Below the pieces are notes generated by a model. The model was given only the letters and a program-made list of their open reading frames with translations, was not told the DNA's origin and made no database searches. A stretch of DNA of 33,994 bases from Pseudomonadota bacterium. Lineage in GTDB: Bacteria > Pseudomonadota > Gammaproteobacteria > Burkholderiales > Burkholderiaceae_C. This document shows positions 9,944-33,994 of the stretch, piece after piece. Location: the NCBI GenBank assembly GCA_018242005.1, contig JAFECU010000272.1, positions 1 to 33,994 on the forward strand, read 5' to 3'. Position 1 is the stretch's first letter, and every line of letters begins with the position of its first letter. Both the position numbers and the translations under genes were made by a program.

Positions 9944-11016
9944 GCGGCATACAGGCCCGCCTGCTTCTCACGCGCCCCGACTTCAGTCTGGACCTTGACC
10001 TTGAGCTGCCCGGCCGGGGCGTCACGGCCCTGTTCGGCCCCTCGGGCTGCGGCAAGACCAGCTGCCTGCGCGCGCTCGCGGGGCTGGAGCGCACTCAGGG
10101 CAGCGTGCGCGTCAACGGCGAGCTCTGGCAGGATGACGCCACCGGCCATTGGCTGCCCACGCACCGGCGCCAGCTCGGCTATGTGTTCCAGGAGGCCAGC
10201 CTGTTCGCCCACCTGAACGTGCAGCGCAACATGGAATACGGCCTGCGTCGCCTGCCCGCCGCGCGCCGCCGCGTGTCGCTGGACCAGGCCGTGGAGCTGC
10301 TTGGACTGGGCGCGCTGCTCCCGCGCATGCCTCACACCCTGTCTGGAGGCGAGCGCCAGCGCGTCGCCATTGCACGGGCGCTGGCCGCCAGCCCTCGCGT
10401 GTTGCTGATGGACGAACCCCTGGCCGCGCTGGACGCCGCGCGCAAGGCCGAGGTCATGCCCTACCTTGAGCGCCTGCAGCGCAGCCTGGACATTCCCATG
10501 CTGTATGTAAGCCACTCCTGCGACGAAGTGGCGCGCCTGGCCTCCCGCCTGGTGCTGATGCAGGCCGGCCGTGTCATGGCTCAGGGCCCAACCGCTGAAC
10601 TCATGGCGCGACTGGACCTCCCCATGGCCCATGGCGACGCCGCCGCCGCGCTGGTGCAGGGACGGGTGGCGGCCTACGACGCGCAGGACCAGTTGCTCAC
10701 GGTGACAACGGCCGGCGGACGAATCCAGCTGGCCAGCGCCAACCCGCGCGCCGCGGGCGAGAGATTGCACCTGCGCGTGCTGGCGCGCGACGTGAGCTTG
10801 GCGCGCACGCGTGCGCCAGACAGCAGCATCCTGAACCTGCTGCCCGTGCGCATCACGCGGCTGACAAACGACGCGCCGGGTCAGGTGCTGGTGGCACTGG
10901 ACATGGCAGGCACCCAGTTGCTGTCGCGTATCACGCAGCGCTCCTGTCGCATGCTGGCGCTGGGCGTGGGGGATGAGGTGTTTGCCCAGATCAAGGGCGT
11001 GGCGTTGGTGGATTAA
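9940..11016 (+). CDS. modC: Molybdate ABC transporter ATP-binding protein
   Basis: This 358-residue ModC energises ModB. It has Walker [10 protein letters not shown] (residues 33-41), Q-loop [10 protein letters not shown], signature [16 protein letters not shown], Walker [13 protein letters not shown] and H-loop YVSHS. A C-terminal TOBE/MOP domain from about residue 290 ([24 protein letters not shown]) is diagnostic for molybdate/tungstate ATPases and is where cytoplasmic oxyanion can inhibit transport. The ATG overlaps the modB TGA in ATGA. Length and motifs are normal. Confidence 0.94.
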
Positions 11017-11084
11017 GAGCAGCAAGCGCTGCGACGCTGGCCGGTGCTACAGTCGATTCCATCCACATTTTTGGAGAAAGTAGC

Positions 11085-11474
11085 ATGGACGCACAGCAGT
11101 TGATCTCCGAATTTCTTGCATCCGACCACGGGGCCCAGGCGGTACAGGCGCTTGGCCAGCAAGGCATCAGCGGCGACGATGCGCAGCAATTGCTCAGCCA
11201 GGCCACGGAGGCGGCCCACGCCCACGTAGAGGAGCAGCAGCAGGGGCTGATGGGCGAGCATGCGGGCAAGAGCTTCTTTGCCGGCATGGCCGCTGGACTG
11301 GTACGCGGCGATGGCTTCTTCAAGTCACTGATGGAGGGCGGCGAAGGCATCATGTCGGGCCGAGTCGCCGAGTCGCTGGCCGCACGCGCGGGCCTGGATC
11401 CATCGATGGCCTCCACCGTGGCCGCCGCGGCCACGCCGTACATCGTGGCCTTCCTGAAGCAGCGGCTGGCCTGA
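11085..11474 (+). CDS. Small helical protein, possibly DUF937/YidB-like
   Basis: This 129-residue Gln/Ala-rich protein has no signal peptide and no clear transmembrane helix. The N-terminal half (MDAQQLISEFLASDHGAQAVQALGQQGIS) looks like short amphipathic helices. The C-terminal part (RVAESLAARAGLDPSMASTVAAAATPYIVAFLKQRLA) resembles the DUF937 pattern in which a degenerate helix-turn-helix precedes a 'P..V..L' helix, as in YidB. That family call is tentative. The start has GGAGA upstream. It stands 68 bases after modC and may have its own promoter; no functional link with molybdate is evident. Confidence 0.7.
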   Translation: MDAQQLISEFLASDHGAQAVQALGQQGISGDDAQQLLSQATEAAHAHVEEQQQGLMGEHAGKSFFAGMAAGLVRGDGFFKSLMEGGEGIMSGRVAESLAARAGLDPSMASTVAAAATPYIVAFLKQRLA

Positions 11475-19766: not shown

Positions 19767-21850
19767 TGGACGGCCTCTTCTGCGCGCAGCGCGGCCACCT
19801 GCTGCAGGCCATCGATGATCTGCTTTTGCGCGCCCACGCTGAGTTCTATCACCTCGCGCGCCTGCGCCACGTAGTAGTCCAGCTGCTCGTCGCTGCGCGA
19901 GAGCGACTTGGCCATGGCGGCCTCGATGCGCTGAAGCTGCGCCAGCATCTGCTCGCTGGCCTGGCCAAACAGCTGCACGGCGCCGCCAAAGGCTTCGCCC
20001 AGGCTGGCGATCTCGCTGGCGCCAGCGCCGACCTGCGCGGCCAGACCCTCCAGGCGGGCGGTCTGAGCATCCAGCGTTTGGGCGAATTGGCCGCCCGCGC
20101 GATCCATGGAACCCGCGGCCTGGGCCACGAGGGCGTCAATGGCACCGCGCTGCTCGTCGGCGGCGCGGCCGGCGGCGGCCAGCAGCGTGGACAGGGATTC
20201 CAGCAGGCGGGCGCGCTCGTCCAGCATGGCGTTGTCGCGTGCGATGCTGTCTGTGATCTGCTGGCGCAACTCGCCCATGGCCTGGGCGGCGGCGCGCGGC
20301 GCGTCGGCAGCGGCGTGTACCAGGCGTTGCACCTCGTCGAGCGTGCCCTGGGCCTGGGCTTGCATGTGGCGTGCGATGTCACCCGCGGCCCGGGCCAGCG
20401 CATCGCCCGTCTGCTGCTGCTGCTTTGCGGCCTGGGCACCGGCCTGGCGCCATTCGTCGGTCAGCGTGGCGGCGACGGACTGCAGGGCCTGCGTCCACTG
20501 GGCCAGGCGCCGCTCCTCCTGCGCGGCCAGGCGGTCCTGCAGGCCCTGGTGGGCCTGGTCCACCGTGGCCTGCAGTGAACCGGCATGCTGTGCCAGTCCG
20601 TCGGTGGCCGCCTTCAGGGCCTGCTGCTGGCGCTCGGCCAGGCGCTCGCCCTCGGTGCTCTGACGCTCCAGTGCCGCGTCCCAGCGCGCGGCCTGCACGT
20701 CCGACTGCTGGGACAGGCGCTGCGCCAGGTCTGCGGCCAGATCGGCCGTGCGCTGCTCGAACCCCTGGGTGAAGCGCTCCAGTGCATCGCCCAGCGCCCG
20801 GGCCGTGGCCTGGCCGGTGCTGCGGTGCTCGCTCAGGGCGCTGGTCCATTGCGTGCTGACGGCGCTGGTGGCCTCGCCAAAGCGCGTAGCCATGGCGTCG
20901 AGCTGGCGGCCGACCTGCTGCGCCATGGCCTCCTGCAGGTGCCTGCTCTCACGCGCCAGGGCGGCCAGCGTGGCCTCGGTGACGGGCCTTATGGCGGCGC
21001 CGGCCTGGGCCGCGCTCTGCGCTGCGGTATCGGCCAGCGTACGCTGCACCGTGGTGGCCAGGGCCGTGTAGGCGGCCTCGGTCTCGCGGTAGAAGCGTTG
21101 TTGCTCGGCCGCCAGTCGCTCGCCCAGAGCCTGCTGCTGGCGCTCGAGCGCGGACATGCAGTCCTGCAGGCTGCTCACCACCTGGGGCAGGCTGTCTGCC
21201 TGCTGCTCCTGCAGGCGCAGTGATGCCTCGCGCTGGTGCTGGCTGGAGTACGGCCGCAGCGGGCCGGCCGTGGCGGCATCGAGCCGCCGCGCGGCCTGGA
21301 TGCGATCGCGCCGGCACAGAGCCGTCATCAGTCCCAGCATGGCGGATGCCGCCACGCCCGCCACCGATGTGCCAAACGCCAGCCCCAGGCCGCGCACGGG
21401 GACCGACAGCGCGTCGCGCATGGCCTCGAGCCCGTCGGCTCCCGCCAGCGCCGCGCCCGTGCCATTCAGGGCCACCACCATGCCGCCGAAGGTGCCCAGC
21501 ATGCCCAGCAGCACCAGCAGGCCGCTCAGATACGAGGCCAGCACCGGCCCCGGCAGGCTGCTGCGAGCGCCTTCGACGCGCTGGCGTACCGCGTGGCGCA
21601 GGCCCGCTGGAAGCGAGGCCAGCCAGTCGTCCAGCCGCGCGGGCGTCTGCGACAGGCCGTGCAGCGCAACGGCCAACGCCTGCGTGGCGCGCGAAAAGCG
21701 CAGCAGCTCCCAGCTGCCCAGCAGGTAGAAGCCCGCGATCAGCACGATGATGAGCAGCGCCAGCGGCTGGGCGTGTATGTAGCCCGTGCCCACCCAACCC
21801 ACGGTGGCAAGGCCGGCGGCAAACGCGGCCAGGGAAAACAGTTTCATCAT
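19763..21850 (-). CDS. DUF802 protein, MotA/TolQ/ZorA-like motor subunit with long coiled coil
   Basis: This 695-residue membrane protein has two hydrophobic helices at the N-terminus (about 5-25 and 30-50). A second pair, LSGLLVLLGMLGTFGGMVVAL (about 110-130) and LGLAFGTSVAGVAASAMLGLMTAL (about 155-180), matches the TolQ/ExbB/MotA core, where LGTxxGM and the TS-AG motif line the ion path. From about 205 to 690 it is almost entirely Gln/Ala/Glu/Leu-rich coiled coil facing the cytoplasm, recalling the long tail of ZorA. It overlaps the DUF3348 stop upstream and the OmpA gene downstream. I infer an ion-driven stator-like complex; its target is unknown. ZorC and ZorD are not present. Confidence 0.87.
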   Translation of the reverse strand: MMKLFSLAAFAAGLATVGWVGTGYIHAQPLALLIIVLIAGFYLLGSWELLRFSRATQALAVALHGLSQTPARLDDWLASLPAGLRHAVRQRVEGARSSLPGPVLASYLSGLLVLLGMLGTFGGMVVALNGTGAALAGADGLEAMRDALSVPVRGLGLAFGTSVAGVAASAMLGLMTALCRRDRIQAARRLDAATAGPLRPYSSQHQREASLRLQEQQADSLPQVVSSLQDCMSALERQQQALGERLAAEQQRFYRETEAAYTALATTVQRTLADTAAQSAAQAGAAIRPVTEATLAALARESRHLQEAMAQQVGRQLDAMATRFGEATSAVSTQWTSALSEHRSTGQATARALGDALERFTQGFEQRTADLAADLAQRLSQQSDVQAARWDAALERQSTEGERLAERQQQALKAATDGLAQHAGSLQATVDQAHQGLQDRLAAQEERRLAQWTQALQSVAATLTDEWRQAGAQAAKQQQQTGDALARAAGDIARHMQAQAQGTLDEVQRLVHAAADAPRAAAQAMGELRQQITDSIARDNAMLDERARLLESLSTLLAAAGRAADEQRGAIDALVAQAAGSMDRAGGQFAQTLDAQTARLEGLAAQVGAGASEIASLGEAFGGAVQLFGQASEQMLAQLQRIEAAMAKSLSRSDEQLDYYVAQAREVIELSVGAQKQIIDGLQQVAALRAEEAVQ

Positions 21851-22560
21851 GTACAGCCCGATAGGGTATGGCGTCGAAGCGCTTGCAGAAGCCCCTCGAC
21901 CGGTTGCAATCTCAATTCCAGTTCGGCCAGCAGCACGGCCTGCAGGTCGGCGCGAAACGCTTCCCGCGCGGCCCCGGTGGCCTCTCCGGCCTCATCCGTG
22001 CACAGCCGCTGGAAGTGCTTTTCAAGCCGCGCAGGCACGGCCGCGAACAGCCGCTGCTCCTGCGCCGACAGCGCCTGGGCCAGCACAACGTCCACCGCGG
22101 CAAGCCGCGCCAGATCACCGCCGCCGGCGGCCACGGCGGCGCGCACGCGGTCGCGCAGTGCGCCCACGGCCACGCCCATGGCCTGCTGGCGCGCCAGACA
22201 GCATTGGCGGTACGGGGCAAACCCCATGGCGGCCTCCAGTGGCGAGCGCCCCGCGGCCTGCACCTCACGGCCTATGGCCTGCGCAAGCGTGGCGCGCACG
22301 CGCTCGTATTCGGTGTGTCCGTCGGTGTACCGGTCGTGGGGACCCGTTGCCTTGGCGGGAGTCGTTGCAGCGGGCAGCTCCAGGGCGGCGGACAGCGCGA
22401 TGGCGTCCGTCCAGCCTACCCATTGAACCAGCCCGTCCGCGAATGCGGCACGCGTTTCGCCCACGCGCTGGGGCGCTTCGGCCATATCCGCCAATAGGCG
22501 CACAAGTGCCGTGCCCGTCAGGCCGGAGCGCCATGGGTACTGCGCCATAGTGCGGTTCAT
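21847..22560 (-). CDS. DUF3348-family protein, first gene of motor-like cluster
   Basis: This 237-residue protein resembles the DUF3348 family: the WRSGLTGTALVRLLADMAEA start and the VQWVGWTDAIALSAAL motif near residues 45-60 are family-like. The rest is mostly alpha-helical with repeated RA.VA.A pieces and a conserved Cys-containing PYRQCCLARQQAM. It has no signal peptide and no transmembrane segment. The ATG at 22560 is preferred; a TTG three codons earlier is also in frame, and no clear ribosome site is seen. It overlaps the start of the DUF802 gene, so all four genes form a tight operon. Function unknown. Confidence 0.82.
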   Translation of the reverse strand: MNRTMAQYPWRSGLTGTALVRLLADMAEAPQRVGETRAAFADGLVQWVGWTDAIALSAALELPAATTPAKATGPHDRYTDGHTEYERVRATLAQAIGREVQAAGRSPLEAAMGFAPYRQCCLARQQAMGVAVGALRDRVRAAVAAGGGDLARLAAVDVVLAQALSAQEQRLFAAVPARLEKHFQRLCTDEAGEATGAAREAFRADLQAVLLAELELRLQPVEGLLQALRRHTLSGCT

Positions 22561-22592
22561 GCGGCTCAAAAAACTTGGCAGTCTACACTGGC

Positions 22593-22606
22593 GGGCTTAC
22601 AAGCCC
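22593..22606. repeat. GGGCTT-AC-AAGCCC inverted repeat before DUF3348
   Basis: A perfect 6-bp inverted repeat lies 33-46 bases upstream of the DUF3348 start, near a TAGACT sequence on the minus strand (22587-22582) that could be a -10 element. It may be an operator, or a short terminator-like stem facing the integrase side. The rest of 22561-22841 carries the integrase control region and no gene. Confidence 0.35.
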
Positions 22607-22693
22607 TTGCGGGCCCATGTATCGAGCGTATCGAATCACTAATGAGGAAGCGTCATGCAATTGGCCACCTGAAGTATGCATTGCGATTTCAGG

Positions 22694-22798
22694 GCGTCTC
22701 AAAAAATTTCATATTCTTAAAAAATATCAATACTTTCAATAACTTATTGTCGCATAGCGTCTCAGTCGATCAATCGAAATTTCTTGACATCTCGATCA
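22694..22798 (+). promoter_or_regulatory. Integrase control region with short direct repeats
   Basis: GCGTCTCA occurs at 22694-22701 and 22757-22764, and TCGATCA at 22766-22772 and 22792-22798. The first TCGATCA copy is part of the inverted repeat TCGAT-CA-ATCGA (22766-22777). A perfect TTGACA -35 candidate lies at 22784-22789, but the matching -10 position falls in GC-rich repeat sequence. The layout suits arm-type integrase or excisionase sites or a repressor site; this is inference. Confidence 0.4.
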
Positions 22799-22800
22799 TT

Positions 22801-22840
22801 TGGGGGCCTCATTGGGGGCCTCGAAAGCCTGAGGCCCCCA
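22801..22840 (+). promoter_or_regulatory. Hairpin that buries the integrase ribosome site
   Basis: TGGGGGCCTCA (22801-22811) and a second near copy TGGGGGCCTC (22813-22822) are both complementary to TGAGGCCCCCA (22830-22840). The only plausible Shine-Dalgarno sequence, GAGG at 22831-22834, seven bases before the ATG, is inside that right arm. Either left arm would mask it, giving two alternative 10-11-bp stems. Confidence 0.65.
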
Positions 22841-22841
22841 G

Positions 22842-24059
22842 ATGCTCACCACCCTCCAAATCAAGTCCGCCAAGGCGCAAGAGCGCGCCTACAAGCTCGC
22901 CGACAGCGGCGGGCTGTACCTGCTTGTCCAGCCCAATGGATCAAAGCTCTGGCGCTACAAGTTCCGCATCGGGGGTGTCGAGGGCAAGCAATCGTTTGGC
23001 GCGTTCCCCGAAGTCAGCCTGGCGGAAGCACGCGGGCTGCACGGCGACTCCCGCAAGCTGGTCGTCCAAGGCATCAACCCAGTCCAGACCAAGCAGGAAT
23101 TGAAAGTCGTTCAGGCACAGGAGCAACTGGAGCGCACGAAGGGCACGTTTGCCGCCGTGATGTCCGACTGGGACACTGCCACAGCCGCCGGGCTGCGCCC
23201 ATCCACCGTGAGGCAGCGCCAGCGCGAGATCAACAACGATCTGGTGCCGAAGCTGAAAAACCGCCCGATGGACGGCATCACGCGCCTGGAGTTGACCGCG
23301 CTGCTGAAGGACGTGGAAAAGCGCGCTCCCGAAGTGGCCCGCAATCTTCGCAACCACCTGTGGGGCATGTTCGAATACGCGATCGACTCCGGGTTGATGG
23401 AGAACAACCCAGTGCCGCCTCTACGCGTCATGAAGAAGCGCAACCAGTCGAACCACCCTGCCCTGGCTGGCGACCAGATCGGAGATTTCCTGCGCGCGCT
23501 CGATGCAGCCACGGCAATCAATGAAGAGACGCGCATCGCGATGCTGCTCGTCTTGTTGACCGCCTGCCGAAAAGCGGAGGTCATCGAAGCTCGCTGGGAT
23601 GAGTTGGACCTGAAGGCCGCCCAATGGGAGATTCCGGCGGCACGCATGAAGGCAAAGCGCCCTCACTGGGTGCCGCTGTCACGTCAGGCCATAGAGTTGC
23701 TCACGAACCTGCGCAAGATTGTCCCGGCCAACCGCGAACACCTGTTTCCGAACCGGCTCGACCCCCGCCGACCAATGGCCAATCGCAGCCTGAACGCCCT
23801 GATGGAGCGGCTTGGCTTTGGCGGAGAAGGAACGCCGCACGGCATGAGGGCGGCCTTCAGCACGCACTTCAACAGACTGGGTGCGAGCGTGGACGTGATC
23901 GAACATTGCCTGGCGCATGTACCGGCCAACGCCGTGCGTGCGGCTTACAACCGCCATGCTTATCAAGACGAACGGCGCATGATGCTCCAGACGTGGGCTG
24001 ATCATCTAGACGGCGTACGGGAGAGTCGGGGTGCGCCGTTGCTCCAGCGAGTTGCATAG
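22842..24059 (+). CDS. int: P4-type tyrosine recombinase (site-specific integrase)
   Basis: This 405-residue integrase catalyses integration and excision of the island. It has the DUF4102 arm-type domain at the N-terminus (SAKAQERAYKLADSGGLYLLVQPNGSKLWRYKFR), a core-binding domain at about 105-185, and the catalytic domain with R243, a lysine near 270-272, H333-x-x-R336 (HGMR), H359 and nucleophile Y369. All catalytic residues are present, so it looks active. It reads away from the backbone junction and converges with the hamB gene, which ends 62 bases after it. No tRNA or tmRNA target was seen beside it, unlike most P4-type elements. Confidence 0.94.
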   Translation: MLTTLQIKSAKAQERAYKLADSGGLYLLVQPNGSKLWRYKFRIGGVEGKQSFGAFPEVSLAEARGLHGDSRKLVVQGINPVQTKQELKVVQAQEQLERTKGTFAAVMSDWDTATAAGLRPSTVRQRQREINNDLVPKLKNRPMDGITRLELTALLKDVEKRAPEVARNLRNHLWGMFEYAIDSGLMENNPVPPLRVMKKRNQSNHPALAGDQIGDFLRALDAATAINEETRIAMLLVLLTACRKAEVIEARWDELDLKAAQWEIPAARMKAKRPHWVPLSRQAIELLTNLRKIVPANREHLFPNRLDPRRPMANRSLNALMERLGFGGEGTPHGMRAAFSTHFNRLGASVDVIEHCLAHVPANAVRAAYNRHAYQDERRMMLQTWADHLDGVRESRGAPLLQRVA

Positions 24060-24120
24060 CCCACCAGAAGATAGTGTCGTCGGCACGTGTTTAGCTAGCG
24101 AATTGTGCGCAATGCGCCAG

Positions 24121-27100
24121 CTACGAAGCCACCAAGTCATTGGGTCCTAGATACTCGATATCAATCGAATCGTTCGAGCCATTGGCAGTGGCAATAGTCA
24201 GTCCGACCGCCTCTCGGTTGAACGGGTATCGGACCTTGCCTACCCGCTTGAAATCGGCGGAGAAAACAGTGTCTTCCTCGCCAGGCCCACCGCCAAGCCG
24301 CAGAGCGGTACCTGGCGGCGGCGGCACACCGAACCACGCTACGGAACCGTTGTAGCCGAGCGAATCCCACGCGGCCAACCGGCCACCCCCCTGGGGCGCG
24401 GTGAACTCTCTCCAGAGTTCGTGTGACTCATCAGTAGGCCAGTCGAAGTGGTCCCTGCGCGCACGAACATCCGGCATCGCCAACCACCGCCTCATCCCGG
24501 CCGGCGAATCAAAACTCGCGCCGGTCTCGACTACCGCACTGATTGCGCCAAGACGGGACGCAAAGCCTGCCTTAATGAGCGTCGACGCAGAGGCCAGGAG
24601 TGTCCCTGTCTCGACTGCGGCCACGGCCGGTGCGCCTGCGTAGTCGGCGAGCGTAGCCTCTTCGGAGAACGGATCAGGATCGTGATGGGCCTCAGCTCTG
24701 ACGCGCACAGCTTCCATTGCCCATGGAAGGTTGTAGACGAATGCGTGCTCGATGAGCGAGACGGCATCGTTAGGGTCGTCTACCCCCATTTCGGGCACCG
24801 GGTAACCACGCAGCCACCGCTCAAGAATGTGCTTCCAATTAGATGGAAGTTTGTTTGGTGTAAACGGGGAAATCTTGAATGCAATGTCTGCAAAGTCAAC
24901 GATGGAAACAACTGCGCGGTCGTGGTCTCCAGACCCCGTTGCCTCGTTTGCTTGAAGCAGCAATTGATCCAGTTCCTGCGCCTTTTTGTCAAGCGCTTGG
25001 CCAGTGGCCAGCCCGACGCCAGCCAAGAAGTAGCCGCGACGCTGGGCGGCCGTGGTACTTGCCCAAATGAACTTGGCGCGCGCCGTCAGGGTACCGAGTA
25101 GAGCAGCCTGCGTCCCTGCGGATTTCCGTATCAATCGGCGGGAGAGCAAGGACGAGGTTAGAACCTTGTCGAGCTGTGCTTCGACCTCGTTGTCCGAGAC
25201 CTGAGTGTCTCCGAGCAAGCTAAAAACGGCTGTATCCAGACTGGTCAGGTGTTGAAGCCAACTCTCGGCAGCCTCTTCCCTAGCGATTCCCGTCTCGTTA
25301 GCCAGAATAGGAAAGTCCCATCCGCCCTGCCCTGCGACGTACTCCATCAGGGCGGCCACATCCTTGCTCCCTATCTTCTTGGCCATACGCGAAAGCAAGG
25401 ACATCAAGAGCCGCAGAATCCCGCTCTCCATTTCCCGTCCTCTGCCACTTCCAATGAGCTCAGCCCACGCCGCGCGCCGCTTGCCGTGGTCCCCGAACAT
25501 CGGGTAGACCACCAACCCTTCAATGTCTACGTAAGCACGCCCCGCGCGGCCCACGACGTTCCGGAATTCTGACTCGCTGATGGCCTCTCGATTTCGCATG
25601 TGGCCATGGAACACCAAGCTTGATGCCGCGAGATTCAAGCCCTGCGCAAGCGTTGGCGACGACACCGTCAGTCTGAGGATGCCATCGCGCAGCAGCTTCT
25701 CGACTTCTCTCCTGAAAGCAGTCGGCAGTTCACCGTGATGAACCGCCACACCCAATCGAAGGCATTCAAGAATTGGATGGTCCGCCCCAAACCATTCCAC
25801 ACCGACCGCAAGCGCTGGCGCCAGAACCGCGACCGGTTGCGTCAAAACGGACGCAACAAGGCCGAGACCATGCATCTTGATGATGCACTTTGCGACGGTC
25901 ATTACCGACCTACGAAGCGGGCAGAACACCAGAACCGATTGTCCGTCCTCCATAAGACGCCAAGCACTCGCGACGCAGAGCTCAGTCTGGTCGGACGGGT
26001 AGACCTTGGCGTTCTTTCTTGTCGATGTCTTCCTCCCGAGCACGAACTTGGACACGAATGGGTGCTCATCACCAACGACGATGTTGAGTCGCCCAGTCTG
26101 CGTGGAAGCACTCCAGTCGACCTCTCCGAATCGTAGGCGTGTTGGGCGCCAGTTGTCTTTGATAAGTCCATCGGGGCGGTCGAACGTGAGCCAGTTTGTG
26201 AAGTCAGTGAGTTGGTCTCCTTCAGGAAGAATTGCAGACAAGCACACTATTCGACGATTAGGGGCATCCGGCCTGCGCAACAGCCGCTGGATTTGCGCCT
26301 CGTAACGGACTTCTCGCTCGCCCAGCCCAATCATGTGGCCTTCGTCCAAGATGACCAAACCAATGTCCTGCAGCAACTCGGGGTCGTTCCGAAGCGCAAA
26401 GTCCAGCTTCTCTGGTGTCGACACCAGTATGTGCTCAGTGCGCAGTGCTTCGACGTCCGTGTCACTCGTTCCAATGCTTCCATACAAGCTTGAGACTGTC
26501 TTTCCCAAAGGGCCGAACGTACGCCGGAGAGATACCTCCGTTTGAGCGGACAGTGCTCGTAGTGGCGTCACGAAGACCACGCGTCTGCCTTGAGCAAGGC
26601 AAGCCAGGATGCACAGCTCAGCGATACGCGTCTTTCCCGCACTAGTCGGCAACGACAGGACCAAGTTCGCATCGAACTGCAGAACACGTTTGGCTGCATC
26701 GACCTGAGAGGGCCACAACTCAATCTCGGCTCGCTTGCGGCACATAAGCGATGCGATGAAGAGCTTGCGCATGTCGGCCCAGTCTCCAACATACGCACCT
26801 GCGGGACCCTGGATCGGCAACAGGACATGAAAACTGCTGCTCCAAAGGCCATCGATGACGTGCGCCGCAAGCCGGTGGACCCACCATTGACTAACAAGGT
26901 TCAGCTCCGCAGCAACCGCAAGCCCTTCTTGGAGGCACGTCCGTGCTGCTTCAATTACCCCTTGCTCCCCGCGCTCCAAAGCAAGCAGCGTCTGAGACAT
27001 TGCGGAGAGGAAGTTTCCTTCCAGAGCGAGCGTCATCATTTCAACAACGCGGCTATCGTCACCTTCCTCATCATCGACGACATCTGGCGATTCGAATACT

Positions 27101-27621
27101 GAAATAAGACTTTCGTCAGAACCAGTGCCCGATGCGAACCAATCCCCCACGGCTTTGTCAACGCCTTCGAGGTCCCTAAGCATCAGCTTGGCCAAACAGA
27201 GTTCAATAACCGAGAGATTCGATTGACCGATCCCCTCGTACAGCAGAGAGTAGGCACGTGCCGAATAGCGGCCGAGGTGATAGGCTGCGCCTGCTACCAA
27301 GCGATGAAAGTCCCGGTATTCATTGGCCACGCCGCGCGCGACCACCGCTTCAATTGACTCCGCTGCGACCTCAAAGGCCACCTTGGCGAAGCTATGACTC
27401 CCTCCGAGATCAACGTATCGCAGCCCGTGAAGAAGTAGTGAGTAACCAAAGGACAGCAGGTCATCGGTCAATCTTGGGCTAAAGTTCGGAGCGTCTATGG
27501 GCAACTCACCTGCGCGCCAAATCATTCCGCGAGCTTGGCCTTTCGCCAGTAGCTGCTGGCGGTATCCCGGCGCAACTGCCGCTTCGATGCTCGCCCGTAA
27601 TTCCTCGAGTGTGGTAGCCAT
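24121..27621 (-). CDS. hamB: Hachiman helicase HamB (SF2, Ski2/DEAD-like)
   Basis: This 1166-residue superfamily 2 helicase is the second gene of a Hachiman system. In order: Q-motif-like WPSQ (303-306), Walker A PTSAGKT (325-331), motif Ia VTPLRALSAQ, Walker B DEGH (426-429), motif III LSAILPEG (461-468), SPTLAQGLN (655-663) and motif VI VGRAGR (690-695); about 300 residues precede the helicase core and about 450 follow. In studied Hachiman systems HamB senses DNA damage or altered DNA and holds HamA in check until activated. It shares one base with the hamA stop (TGATG), so the two are translationally coupled. Identification rests on the helicase plus the DUF1837 partner; alone it could be any Ski2-like helicase. 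Confidence 0.88.
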   Translation of the reverse strand: MATTLEELRASIEAAVAPGYRQQLLAKGQARGMIWRAGELPIDAPNFSPRLTDDLLSFGYSLLLHGLRYVDLGGSHSFAKVAFEVAAESIEAVVARGVANEYRDFHRLVAGAAYHLGRYSARAYSLLYEGIGQSNLSVIELCLAKLMLRDLEGVDKAVGDWFASGTGSDESLISVFESPDVVDDEEGDDSRVVEMMTLALEGNFLSAMSQTLLALERGEQGVIEAARTCLQEGLAVAAELNLVSQWWVHRLAAHVIDGLWSSSFHVLLPIQGPAGAYVGDWADMRKLFIASLMCRKRAEIELWPSQVDAAKRVLQFDANLVLSLPTSAGKTRIAELCILACLAQGRRVVFVTPLRALSAQTEVSLRRTFGPLGKTVSSLYGSIGTSDTDVEALRTEHILVSTPEKLDFALRNDPELLQDIGLVILDEGHMIGLGEREVRYEAQIQRLLRRPDAPNRRIVCLSAILPEGDQLTDFTNWLTFDRPDGLIKDNWRPTRLRFGEVDWSASTQTGRLNIVVGDEHPFVSKFVLGRKTSTRKNAKVYPSDQTELCVASAWRLMEDGQSVLVFCPLRRSVMTVAKCIIKMHGLGLVASVLTQPVAVLAPALAVGVEWFGADHPILECLRLGVAVHHGELPTAFRREVEKLLRDGILRLTVSSPTLAQGLNLAASSLVFHGHMRNREAISESEFRNVVGRAGRAYVDIEGLVVYPMFGDHGKRRAAWAELIGSGRGREMESGILRLLMSLLSRMAKKIGSKDVAALMEYVAGQGGWDFPILANETGIAREEAAESWLQHLTSLDTAVFSLLGDTQVSDNEVEAQLDKVLTSSLLSRRLIRKSAGTQAALLGTLTARAKFIWASTTAAQRRGYFLAGVGLATGQALDKKAQELDQLLLQANEATGSGDHDRAVVSIVDFADIAFKISPFTPNKLPSNWKHILERWLRGYPVPEMGVDDPNDAVSLIEHAFVYNLPWAMEAVRVRAEAHHDPDPFSEEATLADYAGAPAVAAVETGTLLASASTLIKAGFASRLGAISAVVETGASFDSPAGMRRWLAMPDVRARRDHFDWPTDESHELWREFTAPQGGGRLAAWDSLGYNGSVAWFGVPPPPGTALRLGGGPGEEDTVFSADFKRVGKVRYPFNREAVGLTIATANGSNDSIDIEYLGPNDLVAS

Positions 27622-28382
27622 CAGGTCTTCACCGCCGCGAACACGGCGTCTATAAACGCCTTTTGGCCTTCAACGTGGAGGCCAACATAGTGCTGCGCCA
27701 CGGGCCCGGTGTACTCGCCCAGGTTCTTGCTCAGAATTGCCGTGGCATCGTTGCCAGAGAACGAGAACAGCATGTGTGTCACCTGAGACAGCTTCAGGCC
27801 GGTCTTCAGCTGCGCATCGTCCAAGGCATCCTTGAGCGGCTTGTCGCCGGCCTCGCTGAGCCTGTCGGCGACGAAGCTCAAGGCATGCGGAGACGGGAGT
27901 TCGCCGAACTCCGAAAGTGCCTTGCGGGCATCCTTCACAACCGATGCCGGCATCTTCGCGCGGCTCTTGGACTCAGCCTTGAGCACCGCGAGTCCTGCGC
28001 CCCCTTGTCCAAGTTCGAAGGCCAAGACGTCATCTCCCCTCATAGCCATGTTGCGATGATCCTTCCATCGCAGCCGTTTGATTCCCAGCTTGAACGGTGT
28101 AGCCTCGTGAACGTATGTCGTGCAAAGAATTTCTCCGAGGTCGCCGGACTGAATTGAGGTAGCTGTCGGAAGCTTTTGCGCGACAAATTCGGCAACAGCG
28201 GAGCGCCCAAGCCGAGTTAGCAAACCAGCTAGTCTGGCTGGTGCCACATAGTGGTCAGGTACGGCTGCCGCGACCGCAGCTATAGCCGCAGCATGCTTCG
28301 TAGGGTCCGCTTTCAGGACCTTCAACTTGTGCTTTGGTACCGGCGGCTCTACTTGAGCACACCATTCGGCGTATCGGGTCAT
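27621..28382 (-). CDS. hamA: Hachiman effector HamA (DUF1837 nuclease)
   Basis: This 253-residue protein carries the DUF1837 (HamA C-terminal) domain. Typical blocks are GDLGEILCTTYV (80-91), KRLRWKDHRNMAMRGDDVLAF (about 102-122) and the strand ending KAESKS, with E137-x-K139. The D117/D118-E137-K139 pattern fits a PD-(D/E)xK-like nuclease fold. In Hachiman, HamA is the nuclease released when HamB acts, degrading DNA in the infected cell. The ATG has AAAGG about seven bases upstream, and 114 bases separate it from the Argonaute gene, enough for its own promoter although none is convincing. Length is normal for the family. Confidence 0.88.
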   Translation of the reverse strand: MTRYAEWCAQVEPPVPKHKLKVLKADPTKHAAAIAAVAAAVPDHYVAPARLAGLLTRLGRSAVAEFVAQKLPTATSIQSGDLGEILCTTYVHEATPFKLGIKRLRWKDHRNMAMRGDDVLAFELGQGGAGLAVLKAESKSRAKMPASVVKDARKALSEFGELPSPHALSFVADRLSEAGDKPLKDALDDAQLKTGLKLSQVTHMLFSFSGNDATAILSKNLGEYTGPVAQHYVGLHVEGQKAFIDAVFAAVKT

Positions 28383-28496
28383 TCGAGGCCTTTCGCGTAT
28401 CTAGAAGTATCGCTGACTTGAAGACCGTGACAGTAGCAGCGTCGGCAGAACGTAGAGACCCGATGCCTCTGCGGAGCTCTCATTCAAATTAACGGC

Positions 28497-29921
28497 CTAC
28501 ATGAAAAATCGAAACTGGTAGGGAGTTGTGCCTAGTCGATCCATGCGCTTGACCACACGTGACAGAACCTTCGCATACTCCAACGTCACCGGTAGCGGGT
28601 TGTAGAGGGCGTCGTTGTTCCAGTCCATTTTGCTGAGCGCCAGAATGGCCCAAGCGGCGTCATCCCAAGTACCGTGGCCAGCGTGTCGGATCAGTCGAAT
28701 CGGCCGCGGGGTGCCTCGTGAACCTTGAAAGTAGGGGCGATTGCTAATGCCTGCGACGGCTCCGTGCGTCCAAAGCAAAGCGTCAAAGGGCCCCAGCCCA
28801 AGTAGCGTGCCGCGCGTGACCGGATACATCGCTGCCTGAGGTTCTCCTTTGACTCTGGGCTGCTCATGAAGTACACCCCGCCATCCGACATCTTCGACGA
28901 CCTGCACAAGGTCGACGGACTCGCACAAATGGAATGCCTCCATACAGCCATCGACTTCGTCGGGCTTAAACTCCGTTGTCTTGTGGACCATTACTCGTCG
29001 CGGCACCCTGCCGGCGTGTCGGCGTCTGTATAAGTCCATGGCGCGGGTCATCACCTTGAACATCTCAGTTCGCGACAAAAACGGGTTTTCGCGCTGAACC
29101 TCGAACTCGTTCGTGTCGTAGGCGATGAACTCCACTCCCGCCCCATCGGCGTCAAAAACTTGGCTACAGCACGTGACGAAGCGCGGCTTACCCGAAATGA
29201 CCGGGCGCAACGAGTAAGAAAGGCCGATGTAGGCCGTCTCTGTCTCGGTGTGAGCCAACTTCCAAGGAACACCGCCAGCTTTGGCATAAAGAGCCAGGCC
29301 GATGCGCCACATGACGCTCGCTCTGTCCTTGTACGCGAGGCCGCTACCCTCACGAACAATTTGTACGGGCATACCGGCCGAAGCGGTAATGGCCTTCACA
29401 TGATCATGCAGATCGAAATCCTCGCCCACCCCTCCCGTGAATCCCATTTCCCAGCGATCGGGCAAATAAATGAAAAGGACGTCGAAAAGGTTCCGCCTGC
29501 GGTCTAGCTGCTGCAACGCTCGCGTCATTGCGGCCGCCAGCACAATGTGAGGTGACCGGCTCGCCTCATAGGCGTGCTCAAGCTGTGCTTCCAGTTCCAT
29601 GTGGCAGCTGTTCCCAGCTCCCGTCATTCGGACATTAAAAACCTGCTGAAAGCCGGGCCACGCTGGGAGGTAGTCCGTGCGCTCCGTTGGCTCGTAGCGC
29701 GAGTTGAGTTCCTTCAGGAAGTCGTAGAGATGCTGGCTTTCGCCTGCCGGCGCCAGCGTGGCCACCCTGATGGGGTCCGGGACCAAGAGACCCTTCGAGT
29801 AAGGTCCGTATTGAACGAGCCCACGAAGGGGATGAATATGCACGTCGCTGCGCCGCGCCGGGTGAAAGCTCAGCTTCGGCTCGCTGAGGAGGACGTGGTT
29901 GGCCAACTGGCTTGCGCTCAC
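28497..29921 (-). CDS. Short prokaryotic Argonaute (MID-PIWI, catalytically inactive) of SPARSA
   Basis: This 474-residue protein is a short pAgo with only MID and PIWI domains. The PIWI-like stretch ALYAKAGGVPWKL (210-222) then TAYIGLSYSLRP (229-240) is characteristic. In active Argonautes the strand reads IGxD; here the position is Ser235, so target cleavage is not expected. It ends in a hydrophobic tail, FRFFM, as Argonautes do. The GTG start overlaps the stop of the SIR2-APAZ gene by four bases (GTGA). In SPARSA systems the pAgo carries a guide that recognises invading nucleic acid and activates its SIR2 partner to destroy NAD+. The identification rests on fold motifs plus the partner gene. 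Confidence 0.88.
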   Translation of the reverse strand: MSASQLANHVLLSEPKLSFHPARRSDVHIHPLRGLVQYGPYSKGLLVPDPIRVATLAPAGESQHLYDFLKELNSRYEPTERTDYLPAWPGFQQVFNVRMTGAGNSCHMELEAQLEHAYEASRSPHIVLAAAMTRALQQLDRRRNLFDVLFIYLPDRWEMGFTGGVGEDFDLHDHVKAITASAGMPVQIVREGSGLAYKDRASVMWRIGLALYAKAGGVPWKLAHTETETAYIGLSYSLRPVISGKPRFVTCCSQVFDADGAGVEFIAYDTNEFEVQRENPFLSRTEMFKVMTRAMDLYRRRHAGRVPRRVMVHKTTEFKPDEVDGCMEAFHLCESVDLVQVVEDVGWRGVLHEQPRVKGEPQAAMYPVTRGTLLGLGPFDALLWTHGAVAGISNRPYFQGSRGTPRPIRLIRHAGHGTWDDAAWAILALSKMDWNNDALYNPLPVTLEYAKVLSRVVKRMDRLGTTPYQFRFFM

Positions 29922-31687
29922 GCTCCAGCCCTCCGAGTGAAGCCAGTTCGCTGACCGAACCTGAATGCAGCGTCGACGCCGGTTGAAACGCCCAATGCGT
30001 GGACTTCTTCGCCGTCGCCGTAAAGATATGACGACCAGAAATCGACAAGAGAATCGAGTTTCTGGTTATAACGCTTGAAGGTGCGCTCCCTGCCAAAGCC
30101 TGAGGCCGCGAACCTGGTCTCAGCCGTCAGTGTCAGGAAGATGGGACCTGGCTCCAAGAGCAGCCATAGGCTATCTGCGGCCCATTCGATGCGCACCGCA
30201 CAGCCCTCGCGCCATTGAAGGTTCGGATACTTCGGCACTGACCCGCCCAAAGGAGGGACGTGCTTTTTTAGTTCCTGGAGTCCAGGCTCATCCACGGAAA
30301 TGGGATACAAGAGGTCAGTCGTGCGCTTGCGAATCCGACCCAGTCCTCGGTGGCGGCACAGAGCCCGGACTACTGCATCGCGAAGTAGACCTCTCTCCGC
30401 AGAGTCGTAGCGCAATCGCCGAGGCTCGATGGAAGCCAAGTCGAACTCAGCGACGTCGAACGGTGCGAAAGCTTTGTGAATGTCGGCATCGGCTCCAAAC
30501 GCAAGGACTCCTGGCCTTGTCCTCGCTGCTAGAACATCAACTCCCGCTGCTTCTACGGCCTGCCGCACCTCGCCAGTTCCTCCGACTTTGCACACCACAC
30601 GTCTGAAGACGGTAGGCATCTGCGCGACCCGCAACGCGTTCAACCGCACAACCGGCCAATGGGCTTTGCCAACGATGGCCGGTGCCGCTGTCTTGATTTC
30701 CCTCTGCTTACCGAATGCCTCCAAGGACTTGGCATCGAGCTTGGACACAAGGCGCACGAGATCTCGCAGCCCCTCGTCGAAACTTTGGACTCGAACAAGG
30801 CCGGTCTCAATGCCGTGAGCGTGTGCTCGTTCAAGAAGCGCGGTCACGCGCTCGTATGGAGAACCGTCCCCCCGATGCAGCCAGAACAGGCCTGCCGGAA
30901 ACGCGCCTGGAATTGCTGCGGCTTCCTCCAATGTATCCATGATGGAGTCGTCACGCCCGCTGTAGCCGCACACAATCAGCCCGGAGCGCCGACAGCTATC
31001 GACCAAGGCCGCGCGCAGCTCACGATCCTGATGACGAAGTTCGTCATCGGTGTTCTTTAGCTGACGCCAGCGGAAGTCTCCATGAAGCTTTACCTCTATG
31101 GGCCAACGACCGTCTGCCATTGCCTTGCGAGCTATTTCGGGACCAACGCCGAAGGCCACAGAAGTGAGCGCGCCTGTCCCATCAAATACTTTGGCACATG
31201 CATCCGCCACCAGAGGGTCAAAGTTCGTCGTCCAGACTATGCGCGTGTGGTCAGCCTTCATCAGGGCAGCAAGAGCCACGTGGCCATAGGAAGGCTTTGC
31301 TCCGCTCACCTTAGCGTCGAGATAGGCCCGACGGTCCGCTTCAGCGGGGAAGACCTTCTCGAAGATGACCGAGTACTCATTGGAAGCCCCCTCAGCCGGC
31401 AGACTGTTTGTCGAGTCGATGTGGGACTGCAAGTGTTGACGAACGCCAGGCGCCGAGAGATCGGCAACCATTTCCGGCGGCGCCCGCCGTTGACTTACAA
31501 ACAACTTTTGCTTGAACTCCCAAATCATGTCACCGGCTGTCGGGATGCCAGCGGCCGCTGAAGCGCCAGCGCCCAAGAACCACATCAAGCTTCCGGGGCG
31601 CATAGAAAACCGCCGGGAAAAATCGTCCGGCTGTATCTCAAGCTTCGACGCCGACGAAACATCCGGCTGCTTTTCGATTTCCAGCAT
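29918..31687 (-). CDS. SIR2-APAZ NADase, effector of SPARSA
   Basis: This 589-residue fusion has a SIR2 domain at about 30-280: nucleotide loop LGAGAS (38-43), WTTNFD with N155, catalytic-type H202 in KLHGDF, and GYSGRDD (241-247). A C-terminal APAZ domain (about 330-589, with FRRVVCKVGGT, RALCRHRGLGRIRKRT and the C-terminal FGQRTGFTRR) stands in for the missing N-PAZ half of the short Argonaute. Characterised SPARSA complexes hydrolyse NAD+ after guide-directed target binding, killing or arresting the cell. SIR2 residues look intact, so it should be active. The ATG at 31687 has GGAGGG just upstream. First gene of the pair. Confidence 0.9.
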   Translation of the reverse strand: MLEIEKQPDVSSASKLEIQPDDFSRRFSMRPGSLMWFLGAGASAAAGIPTAGDMIWEFKQKLFVSQRRAPPEMVADLSAPGVRQHLQSHIDSTNSLPAEGASNEYSVIFEKVFPAEADRRAYLDAKVSGAKPSYGHVALAALMKADHTRIVWTTNFDPLVADACAKVFDGTGALTSVAFGVGPEIARKAMADGRWPIEVKLHGDFRWRQLKNTDDELRHQDRELRAALVDSCRRSGLIVCGYSGRDDSIMDTLEEAAAIPGAFPAGLFWLHRGDGSPYERVTALLERAHAHGIETGLVRVQSFDEGLRDLVRLVSKLDAKSLEAFGKQREIKTAAPAIVGKAHWPVVRLNALRVAQMPTVFRRVVCKVGGTGEVRQAVEAAGVDVLAARTRPGVLAFGADADIHKAFAPFDVAEFDLASIEPRRLRYDSAERGLLRDAVVRALCRHRGLGRIRKRTTDLLYPISVDEPGLQELKKHVPPLGGSVPKYPNLQWREGCAVRIEWAADSLWLLLEPGPIFLTLTAETRFAASGFGRERTFKRYNQKLDSLVDFWSSYLYGDGEEVHALGVSTGVDAAFRFGQRTGFTRRAGA

Positions 31688-31718
31688 AACCCTCCGGGAA
31701 AAACCTAGCGGTAGCGCG

Positions 31719-31894
31719 CTAACAGTCTACAAGTCGTTCGTCAAATTTCGTATCCGGCCACAGTTGATTGATCTGTTCTTCCAACGCATTCACCCGATGC
31801 GCATTCAGTATGCAGACGACAGGTGCCGCGCTCAGCCGATGTTCATGCCCCACATCTGGCCATCAGAAAATAGTTTAGTGCTCTCGTTCGTCAT
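31719..31894 (-). pseudogene. Possible frameshifted small gene upstream of SPARSA
   Basis: An ATG at 31894, 12 bases after GGAGG, opens 20 codons (MTNESTKLFSDGQMWGMNIG, stop at 31832). In another frame of the same strand a 44-codon stretch ends at 31719 and has a protein-like composition (SAAPVVCILNAHRV, then NALEEQINQLWPDTKFDERL). One added base near GATGGCC (about 31863) would join them into one protein of about 58 residues. It may be a decayed small gene, a sequencing error or chance. No family is recognised. The rest of 31688-31925 shows no convincing promoter. Confidence 0.3.
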
Positions 31895-31925
31895 GAATAC
31901 TAACTACCTCCCATAGCTAGATTGC

Positions 31926-33994
31926 TTACCGAATACGAATCGGCAACGACACCTGGGGCTGGATCGGCACCAGCGTCTTGGCATAGGCGCGCAGGATGTC
32001 GTTGTAGAGATCGGCGTGCTTCGGTGCCTCGACCGACAGGATCAGCGCGTAGCGGATCTTCTCTGCACCGGTGGCCCGGCCGCCGCCGTCGCGGGCGTTG
32101 TAGTGGATGTCGAACACGGGGTTCTTGAAGCTGGAACCGCGGAAGGTTTTGGCACCGTGCAGCACGGTTTCCCACTTGCCCTGATCCGAACGACGCTCCT
32201 GCTCGGTGGCGAACTTCTTCAGGTCGAAGAAGCCCTTGGTATCGGCGTTGCTCTTGCCGTCTTTGATCTTCTCGTCGTTGGGACGGAAGACGACTTCGAG
32301 GCCGGCCTTGGTGTAGGCCGCAGCATCCTGCGGATCGGTGGGTGATGCGTAGCAGAAGGTAGCCTTCAGGCGAACGTTGCCTGTCAGCCCGTCCTTGGGC
32401 AGCGGCAGGCTGGCGCGCAGGTACTTGCTGGGTTTGAGCTCCCCCTGGTAGACCACTCTGGCCACGCCATCCGGACACGTGATGATGTCGAGCGTGTCCT
32501 CGGGAATCTTGCCCCAGCCCACTTCGATCGGGTCATGCTCGCCAGGATCGGCCGCATGGACCAACAAGGCCTTGATGGCAAGAGGTGTCAGGTTGCCGCC
32601 CAGGATGGCACGGATACCGACCGCGCTACGCAGCAGGTACGGCGCCGCGAAGCTAGTGCCGAGCTGTGGCGTCAGCACTGGTTTCGCGTTCGGCGCCAAG
32701 ACGTGGAAGTACTTGGACGCCGGGTTGCCGCCGAAGGCCATCAGGTCCGGCTTGACGACGCCGGGGCTGCGACCCGGCCCGATCGCGCTGTAGGGCGCGC
32801 GAGCCCAGCCCGCGCCGGTGTCGTCGGCCGCGCCGACCGAGAGGGCATTCACGCAGTCCGACGGAACCTGCACCCGGCTGTAGCCGAGCTCGCGGTCACG
32901 TTCTCCGTTGTTGCCCACGGCCACAGTCATGAGCGTGTCACCGTCGCTGAGCAGCTCGTCGATGACGGAGGTCCAAGCATGGACCTCCTGATCCTCCACT
33001 TCGAGGTCCGGCCCCAGGCTCAAGTTAATGAACTCGTAGGAGCGGGACAGCAGAACCTGTTCGATGAGACCGAGCGTGCGATACAACTCCAACGGTTCCT
33101 CACCGGCCGACTCCTGGTCGAGCACACGCAAATGATCCACTGGGGCGAAAGGCCTGCCGGCCGTTCCGTTGGGCTGGATCGGGCCGAACAACACGGCCGA
33201 CGTCACGCCCAGGCCGTGCTCCGGGCCATCCGGGTCGTCGTCGGCGTCTTCGTCGAGCTTGCGGTACGAGCGCAGCCAGGGGCCGATGGGGTGGTGCTTC
33301 GGCAGGCCGCCGTCCAGGATGGCGACGCGAGGCTCGGACGATAGGGCCTGCTCGGTAGGAAGGCTGCACCCGACCGAGGGACCGCCGCTGCGTTGCAGCG
33401 GGCGAATGCCGCGCAGTTTGGGCACCGGCCGGATCACCCGGACGAAGGTGAAGCTGGCCAGCTTCTCGACTTCGCGCGGCTTGCCTTCGACCGGTACGAA
33501 CCACAGGTTGCCGGCGACGAAATCGACTTCACTATGGACCTTAACGCCCTCCCGCTGGGCGAACTTCATGAAAGCCTTCTGGATCAAGCCAGGGTCTTCG
33601 CCCGGTAACAGATGCAGGCCCACCTCGAAGAACCGATCCTTCGGTCCGCCCAGGCTCACGATGCGCTCCGCTGGCGCGAAAGCGGCGAACTGTTCGATGT
33701 GGGCCAGGTCGTCGCCCTCGTCGGATTCCGCGTCGATGGTTTCCGTCCACCGCGAAAGGTTGCGGAAGGCTTGGCGCTTGCCCGCGACGAACAGTTCGGT
33801 CGTCGTGGTCTCCTGCGGCTGCCCCTTGCGGGTCCAGGCCTGTGGCTTGACCTTGACAGTACGGCTACCGATGGACTCCAGCCCCGTACTGCGCAACAGC
33901 CCGGTCGGGAAATAGGAACGAGCGATGAAGCTGGGGTTCATCATCAGCCGGGCCACCGCGAAGTCGCCCGGACAGGCGTCGATGGGCAGTTCGT
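31926..33994 (-). CDS. Subtilisin-like S8 protease, IetS type (5' end outside window)
   Basis: This large S8-family serine protease is open to the right edge; the frame before a GTG at 33956 reads LPIDACPGDFAVARLMMNPS without a stop, and that is normal family sequence, so the true start is outside. Counting from that GTG, the catalytic triad is D215 (VAILDGG), H247 (EHGLGVTS) and S435 (GTSFAAPY), with the oxyanion Asn349 in VGNNG. About 200 residues precede the protease core and a beta-rich tail follows. There is no visible secretion signal, so it is probably cytoplasmic. Such proteases pair with an AAA+ ATPase as IetAS (plasmid incompatibility and defence); an ietA gene is expected just upstream, beyond 33994. 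Confidence 0.85.
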   Translation of the reverse strand, partial: ELPIDACPGDFAVARLMMNPSFIARSYFPTGLLRSTGLESIGSRTVKVKPQAWTRKGQPQETTTTELFVAGKRQAFRNLSRWTETIDAESDEGDDLAHIEQFAAFAPAERIVSLGGPKDRFFEVGLHLLPGEDPGLIQKAFMKFAQREGVKVHSEVDFVAGNLWFVPVEGKPREVEKLASFTFVRVIRPVPKLRGIRPLQRSGGPSVGCSLPTEQALSSEPRVAILDGGLPKHHPIGPWLRSYRKLDEDADDDPDGPEHGLGVTSAVLFGPIQPNGTAGRPFAPVDHLRVLDQESAGEEPLELYRTLGLIEQVLLSRSYEFINLSLGPDLEVEDQEVHAWTSVIDELLSDGDTLMTVAVGNNGERDRELGYSRVQVPSDCVNALSVGAADDTGAGWARAPYSAIGPGRSPGVVKPDLMAFGGNPASKYFHVLAPNAKPVLTPQLGTSFAAPYLLRSAVGIRAILGGNLTPLAIKALLVHAADPGEHDPIEVGWGKIPEDTLDIITCPDGVARVVYQGELKPSKYLRASLPLPKDGLTGNVRLKATFCYASPTDPQDAAAYTKAGLEVVFRPNDEKIKDGKSNADTKGFFDLKKFATEQERRSDQGKWETVLHGAKTFRGSSFKNPVFDIHYNARDGGGRATGAEKIRYALILSVEAPKHADLYNDILRAYAKTLVPIQPQVSLPIRIR

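Follow-up and report, generated by a model that had tools for sequence, protein, structure and literature searches.

An apparently intact two-gene SPARSA system

We identified what is very probably a complete two-gene SPARSA system (SIR2-APAZ NADase with short Argonaute) in a 33,994-nucleotide stretch of DNA from a Pseudomonadota bacterium of the Burkholderiaceae_C (GenBank assembly GCA_018242005.1, contig JAFECU010000272.1). This stretch, hereafter the window, is the whole of contig C191 in an assembly of 313 contigs. SPARSA was reportedly first described in a 2022 paper, and the pair is a genuine, apparently intact new member of this type rather than a new kind of system. It has the SPARSA domain order, carries the catalytic and 5'-phosphate-binding residues, keeps its two-gene synteny among relatives and lies on a mobile island.

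The SIR2-APAZ effector gene occupies 29918-31687 of the minus strand and encodes 589 residues from an ATG start, which is directly preceded by a GGAGG-like ribosome site within the intergenic stretch at 31688-31925 (minus strand). The gene for the short prokaryotic Argonaute (pAgo), with MID and PIWI domains, lies at 28497-29921 of the same strand and encodes 474 residues from a GTG start. The four-base GTGA overlap of start and stop that the first-pass annotation had described is present at 29921-29918 on the minus strand, in the right frame. Domain limits were transferred through alignment from the SPARSA of Geobacter sulfurreducens (GsSPARSA, with subunits GsSir2 and GsAgo) as given in PMC10781750. 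In the effector they place the SIR2 domain at residues ~21-327 (31627-30707), a linker at ~328-347 and APAZ at ~348-585 (30646-29933), and in the Argonaute they place MID at ~1-225 and PIWI at ~226-474.

Profile searches with SIR2, APAZ and pAgo models, proposed at first pass, bore out this identity. The effector matched Pfam SIR2_2 (E 2.4e-12) and PADLOC SIR2-PNTD1-PNTD2 models over residues 27-587 (E 3.7e-171) and 54-587 (E 6.1e-176), and the best PADLOC model for the Argonaute was pAgo_I (E 1.1e-194), but Pfam gave no APAZ match in the effector and no match at all, PIWI included, in the Argonaute. Among the outcomes that had been named as refuting, this absence from Pfam is the one that was partly observed; PADLOC models and the solved SPARSA chains match both regions. 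Both proteins also match parts of the PADLOC models for single-chain SIR2-APAZ-Ago pAgos (PDLC02420 and PDLC02384, with 1010 and 1030 positions), in which one long model spans what is two genes in the window.

Among the sequences of solved structures, effector residues 21-585 align with chain 8in8_B (E ~6e-64), and up to E 0.1 the only further matches are 8jl0_A and 8jkz_A, all three being variants of one SIR2-APAZ chain. We assign 8in8 and the related entries to GsSPARSA because all 20 mapped GsSir2 residues named in PMC10781750 agree with the chain letters. Argonaute residues 3-474 align with 8in8_C (E 3e-111; 195 of 462 aligned residues identical, 42%), and the next-best solved short pAgos trail far behind (E 2.8e-28). 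As sequence matches, these E-values lie far beyond chance. The C-terminal half of the effector had been called APAZ-like, and it is covered by both the PADLOC models and the solved chain up to residue 585. The description of its partner as MID-PIWI only likewise fits a 474-residue protein aligned almost throughout with a MID-PIWI Argonaute.

The SIR2 residues noted as intact, LGAGAS (residues 38-43), N155 and H202, are indeed present, and N155 and H202 align with the catalytic N142 and H186 of GsSir2. Pairwise alignment further equates GsSir2 F143, D144, Y226 and F287 with window F156, D157, Y242 and F303, and S227, R229 and D230 with S243, R245 and D246. Mutation of N142, H186, F143, D144, Y226 or F287 abolished the NADase activity of GsSPARSA, as reported in PMC10781750. 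Loss of conserved pocket residues had been named as an outcome that would speak against the assignment; instead, the catalytic Asn and His and most NAD-pocket residues are kept, with R30, S38, E262 and L112 of GsSir2 replaced. Alanine mutants of R30, S38 and E262 stayed active according to the same source (PMC10781750). Asn and His occupy the catalytic columns in 76 of 78 related SIR2 rows, the other two rows being gaps, and both are invariant in an alignment of the window with 43 of 73 near-full-length SIR2-APAZ frames.

The pocket for the guide 5'-phosphate is also kept in the Argonaute, where GsAgo D164, H166, K170 and Q181 correspond to D170, H172, K176 and Q187; GsAgo Y359 is retained as Y366. 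Across the 80 related loci described below, the H172, K176 and Q187 columns hold H, K and Q without exception, and the D170 column holds Asp in 77. The window system thus shares with GsSPARSA the two-gene plan of SIR2-APAZ and MID-PIWI, the catalytic pair, the 5'-phosphate pocket and a near end-to-end alignment. It differs in the 42% Argonaute identity, in an insert and changed guide-base pocket, and in replaced N82/Y84 and R30/S38/E262.

The PIWI domain has the stretches IGLSY (232-236) and RVMVHKT (309-315), both without an acidic residue; these are presumably the places where active Argonautes carry Asp of the DEDX tetrad. Columns 232-236 contain one D in 40 Argonaute rows. Short-clade pAgos all lack the DEDX slicing tetrad, as stated in PMC6299218.

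Relatives of the pair

A genome scan with the window Argonaute confirmed 156 places, of which the best 80 were analysed. They fall into 31 near loci with 61-86% Argonaute identity and 49 far loci with 39-44%. The nearest named relative is that of Variovorax sp. YR216 (86% in the Argonaute, 77% in SIR2-APAZ), which has the same kind of gene overlap but, unlike the window, shows no match to HamA, HamB, ietS or the integrase within 10-kb flanks. A tree of 82 Argonautes, built without the shortened one of locus L020, groups the window with Variovorax sp. YR216 (support 100/100). Deeper in the tree, support is only 91/55 for the fork joining GsAgo with 48 far loci, which does not include the far locus L049. 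The GsAgo branch is long and the program gave a warning of long-branch attraction; for these reasons the deep near/far split is not firm.

The four-base overlap in the right frame recurs at 61 of 70 related junctions (24/24 near, 37/46 far); ten of the 80 loci were not counted, two (L020 and L067) having no SIR2 match and eight a SIR2 frame below 570 codons. Neighbour clustering of open reading frames (ORFs) within 6 kb in the 31 near loci and the window found no third family in more than five of the 32, and several of the sets are near-clonal. We therefore reject a conserved third gene, as far as these loci, many of them cut short by contig ends, can show. Profiles, solved-structure sequences, residues and synteny agree with the SPARSA layout that had been proposed.

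The taxonomic labels of the near loci span many phyla, and some of these loci have identical Argonautes. Many of them come from metagenome bins, in which misbinning is possible. The isolates Sedimentitalea nanhaiensis and Lutimaribacter pacificus share an identical Argonaute, which speaks for transfer. Ninety-one plasmid records match the Argonaute, two of them, from Rhodobacterales, being of the near type (66-67%); in both of these records the SPARSA pair has a Fic-family gene upstream. The phage records gave no match to the window Argonaute. Four viral-class contigs of IMG/VR (L198-L201) carry far-type SPARSA pairs with 39-40% Argonaute identity. Within 299 genomes of the family, 11 (own included) had any SIR2-APAZ match, the best other one being 34-35% identical, and IetS at E up to 1e-60 was found in 20 of 399 (own included). 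Such samples miss carriers, since the genome with a near-identical copy of the island (G333, below) was absent from the draw of 299 and present in that of 399.

A mobile island with exchangeable cargo

The pair lies on an island whose left boundary falls at 22590-22665 (no strand), as defined by alignments with congeners and with two other genera. Six genomes were searched with the query 21850-22800: of the congeners, G295 aligns no further than 22605, G004 no further than 22590, and G142 throughout; G333, from another genus, aligns only from 22664, and G226 and G355 gave short matches only. The edge recurs at 22665 in a further genome of another genus (G123). The G+C content is 0.596 from 22664 rightwards, compared with 0.670 for 1-22600. 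The island begins with a tyrosine integrase (22842-24059, plus strand; Pfam), followed by the helicase HamB (24121-27621; PADLOC HamB 1577.9 bits, Pfam DEAD), HamA (27621-28382; Pfam HamA E 4.8e-11, PADLOC HamA E 2.7e-94), the SPARSA pair and the subtilase IetS (31926-33956; Pfam and PADLOC), which is cut by the contig end; the last five genes are all on the minus strand. The adjacent HamA and HamB identify a Hachiman system. The island genes, like the alternative cargo and the divergent guide-end pocket described below, go beyond the first-pass annotation of the pair. No tRNA was found in the window, and no RNA family at gathering thresholds in 21000-33994.

In the single-contig genome G333, the part of the island that lies in the window differs by seven of 11,331 bases (five in 8777, none in 2078 and two in the remaining overlap piece), an insertion sequence apart. 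One base differs within the pair, giving D466Y at a variable APAZ position of the effector and an identical Argonaute, and there is no protein change in HamA, HamB or the IetS part. The pair is recently mobile, and the island is nearly unchanged in another genus. At 10041-11219 of the G333 locus (L158), ietS and SIR2-APAZ are separated by this insertion sequence, with CTAG duplicated, at a place equivalent to window 31917-31920; an effect on expression of the pair is possible.

We also found an alternative content for the same frame in the same assembly. Long matches between contig C124 (1-8699) and the window are confined to the two ends of the contig: 2083 bases of ietS are 91.8% identical, and 418 bases at the integrase end 92.1%. 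In between, C124 carries a SMEK-APAZ gene, a short pAgo and an RT_UG5-nitrilase gene. This SPARDA-like pair has the same ietS before it and the same integrase after it as the window pair, but SMEK in place of SIR2 and an Argonaute only 26-30% identical to that of the window. The congener G142 has an island that differs from C124 at seven positions in 8699 and adjoins the same chromosomal flank as the window island (main blocks 85.8 and 89.3% identical). Behind ietS in G123 (L160, 5954-10752) there are ORFs of 259 and 197 residues without a PADLOC match and then a 1141-residue UvrD/GajB-like helicase, and the first ORFs behind ietS in three further loci (L164, L165 and L167) are similar to those of G123. 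With other genes behind ietS in C124, G142, G123 and others, one integrase/ietS frame holds different cargo. Defence hotspots with exchangeable island content have been described for Pseudomonas (PMC12629846), and the differing cargo seen here is an example of that known pattern.

The 38-39 bases directly before both contig ends match G333 DNA exactly, while other stretches match diverged copies; the breaks of C191 and C124 probably mark the points from which the two islands are identical. The assembly could contain more than one strain, and C191 and C124 may come from different cells. In G333, ietA (PADLOC IetA E 2.1e-82) precedes a 740-residue IetS. In the own assembly, an Agrobacterium IetA query matched only other AAA genes, and the ietA stretch of G333 (L158, 4400-8000; 3601 bases) had no match longer than 30 bases among the 40 of 231 candidates scored. 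An AAA gene on contig C162, presumably MoxR-like, was rejected as IetA since it adjoins a cytochrome-type gene.

Alternative explanations and contrary evidence

All five minus-strand genes of the island are adjacent and run in the same direction, which could mean that SPARSA works jointly with Hachiman, IetAS or both as one larger unit. HamAB also adjoins an Argonaute remnant in locus L020 and a SPARSA pair in locus L054, which would fit such a unit. However, HamA occurs in two and IetS in none of the 80 related loci (E up to 1e-5; flanks of up to 10 kb, many of them shortened by contig ends), and the same ietS precedes other cargo in C124 and G142. We consider a joint unit very unlikely.

Several observations weigh against a working system of the Geobacter kind. 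A promoter scan of 28300-32000 found no sigma-70-type site. The SIR2-APAZ frame is split or shortened in 5 of 29 assessable near loci (L028, L032, L033, L040 and L045), L032 being broken by an insertion of several kb; 30 near loci had a SIR2 match, and L046 was left out because it lies at a contig edge. GsAgo residues that contact the guide 5' bases (N184, R190 and N195) and the target 3' end (N82 and Y84) are unconserved in the window. N184A abolished the activity of GsSPARSA according to PMC10781750, so that the exact function is not transferable from it.

The broken effectors could suggest that the window pair is also a fossil, with genes present and nonfunctional. In L020 (5260-8156), from a Curvibacter metagenome-assembled genome, a transposase gene, presumably IS3-like, replaces SIR2-APAZ and the start of the Argonaute, and HamAB stays adjacent. 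Among the far loci, L051 also has a short SIR2 frame and L060 lies at a contig edge. Argonaute frames are at least 460 codons from stop to stop in all 80 loci, including those with a broken effector. To judge from their frames, then, some near relatives have lost the effector and the window has not: both of its frames are open, its catalytic residues are kept and an open copy differing by one base exists in another genus. A fossil is, if anything, slightly less credible than a joint unit. The least probable alternative is that the SIR2 domain is a nuclease, as first proposed for SIR2-APAZ and in line with the earlier annotation of SIR2 domains encoded close to pAgos as nucleases (PMC6299218), since GsSPARSA hydrolyses NAD+ and its essential residues (PMC10781750) are conserved in the window.

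The changes in the guide pocket are distributed unevenly. GsAgo N184 falls on window R190 in the pairwise alignment, or on E191 in that of many rows, beside a one-residue insert, and GsAgo R190 and N195 correspond to Y197 and S202. In all 31 near loci the conserved Gln is followed by R-E or R-Q with the one-residue insert. N184 is kept in 44 of 49 far and none of the 31 near loci, whereas not one of the 80 retains R190 or N195; the N184 change therefore marks the near loci, and R190 and N195 are peculiar to GsAgo. The loss of Y84 may be only apparent, because Y84 of the window, one place before the aligned L85, is invariant in 40 aligned Argonautes. From these residues, the first bases of the guide may be read differently in the window SPARSA. 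Against a differing guide choice, 5'-U and 5'-A guides both activate GsSPARSA in vitro (PMC10474274).

Proposed mechanism and significance

In conclusion, the window pair most likely acts as a SPARSA system, and by analogy with that of G. sulfurreducens we can suggest its complex formation, guide type, trigger, NAD+ loss and protection. A heterodimer of SIR2-APAZ and the short Argonaute would load a guide RNA with a 5'-phosphate. When this guide pairs with single-stranded DNA of an invading plasmid or phage, the pairing would be sensed in the PIWI domain, and release of the SIR2 pocket would then lead to hydrolysis of NAD+, so that the infected cell would stop growing or die. More tentatively, and less probably than not, the near group (31 loci and the window) could be a branch of SPARSA with its own rule for the first bases of the guide, its members moving between hosts as exchangeable cargo. 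A single integrase/IetAS slot would then house a short-Argonaute system of either the NAD+-depleting or the SMEK-nuclease type, and related strains would exchange one guided suicide effector for the other.

The solved SIR2-APAZ chains matched here are variants of one G. sulfurreducens protein, as PMC10781750 and the residue check indicate. An intact, recently mobile pair from loci with a differing guide-end pocket could reveal whether guide choice varies within SPARSA, and the islands with alternate cargo place two short-Argonaute systems in the same genomic frame, where they can be compared as they occur in nature.

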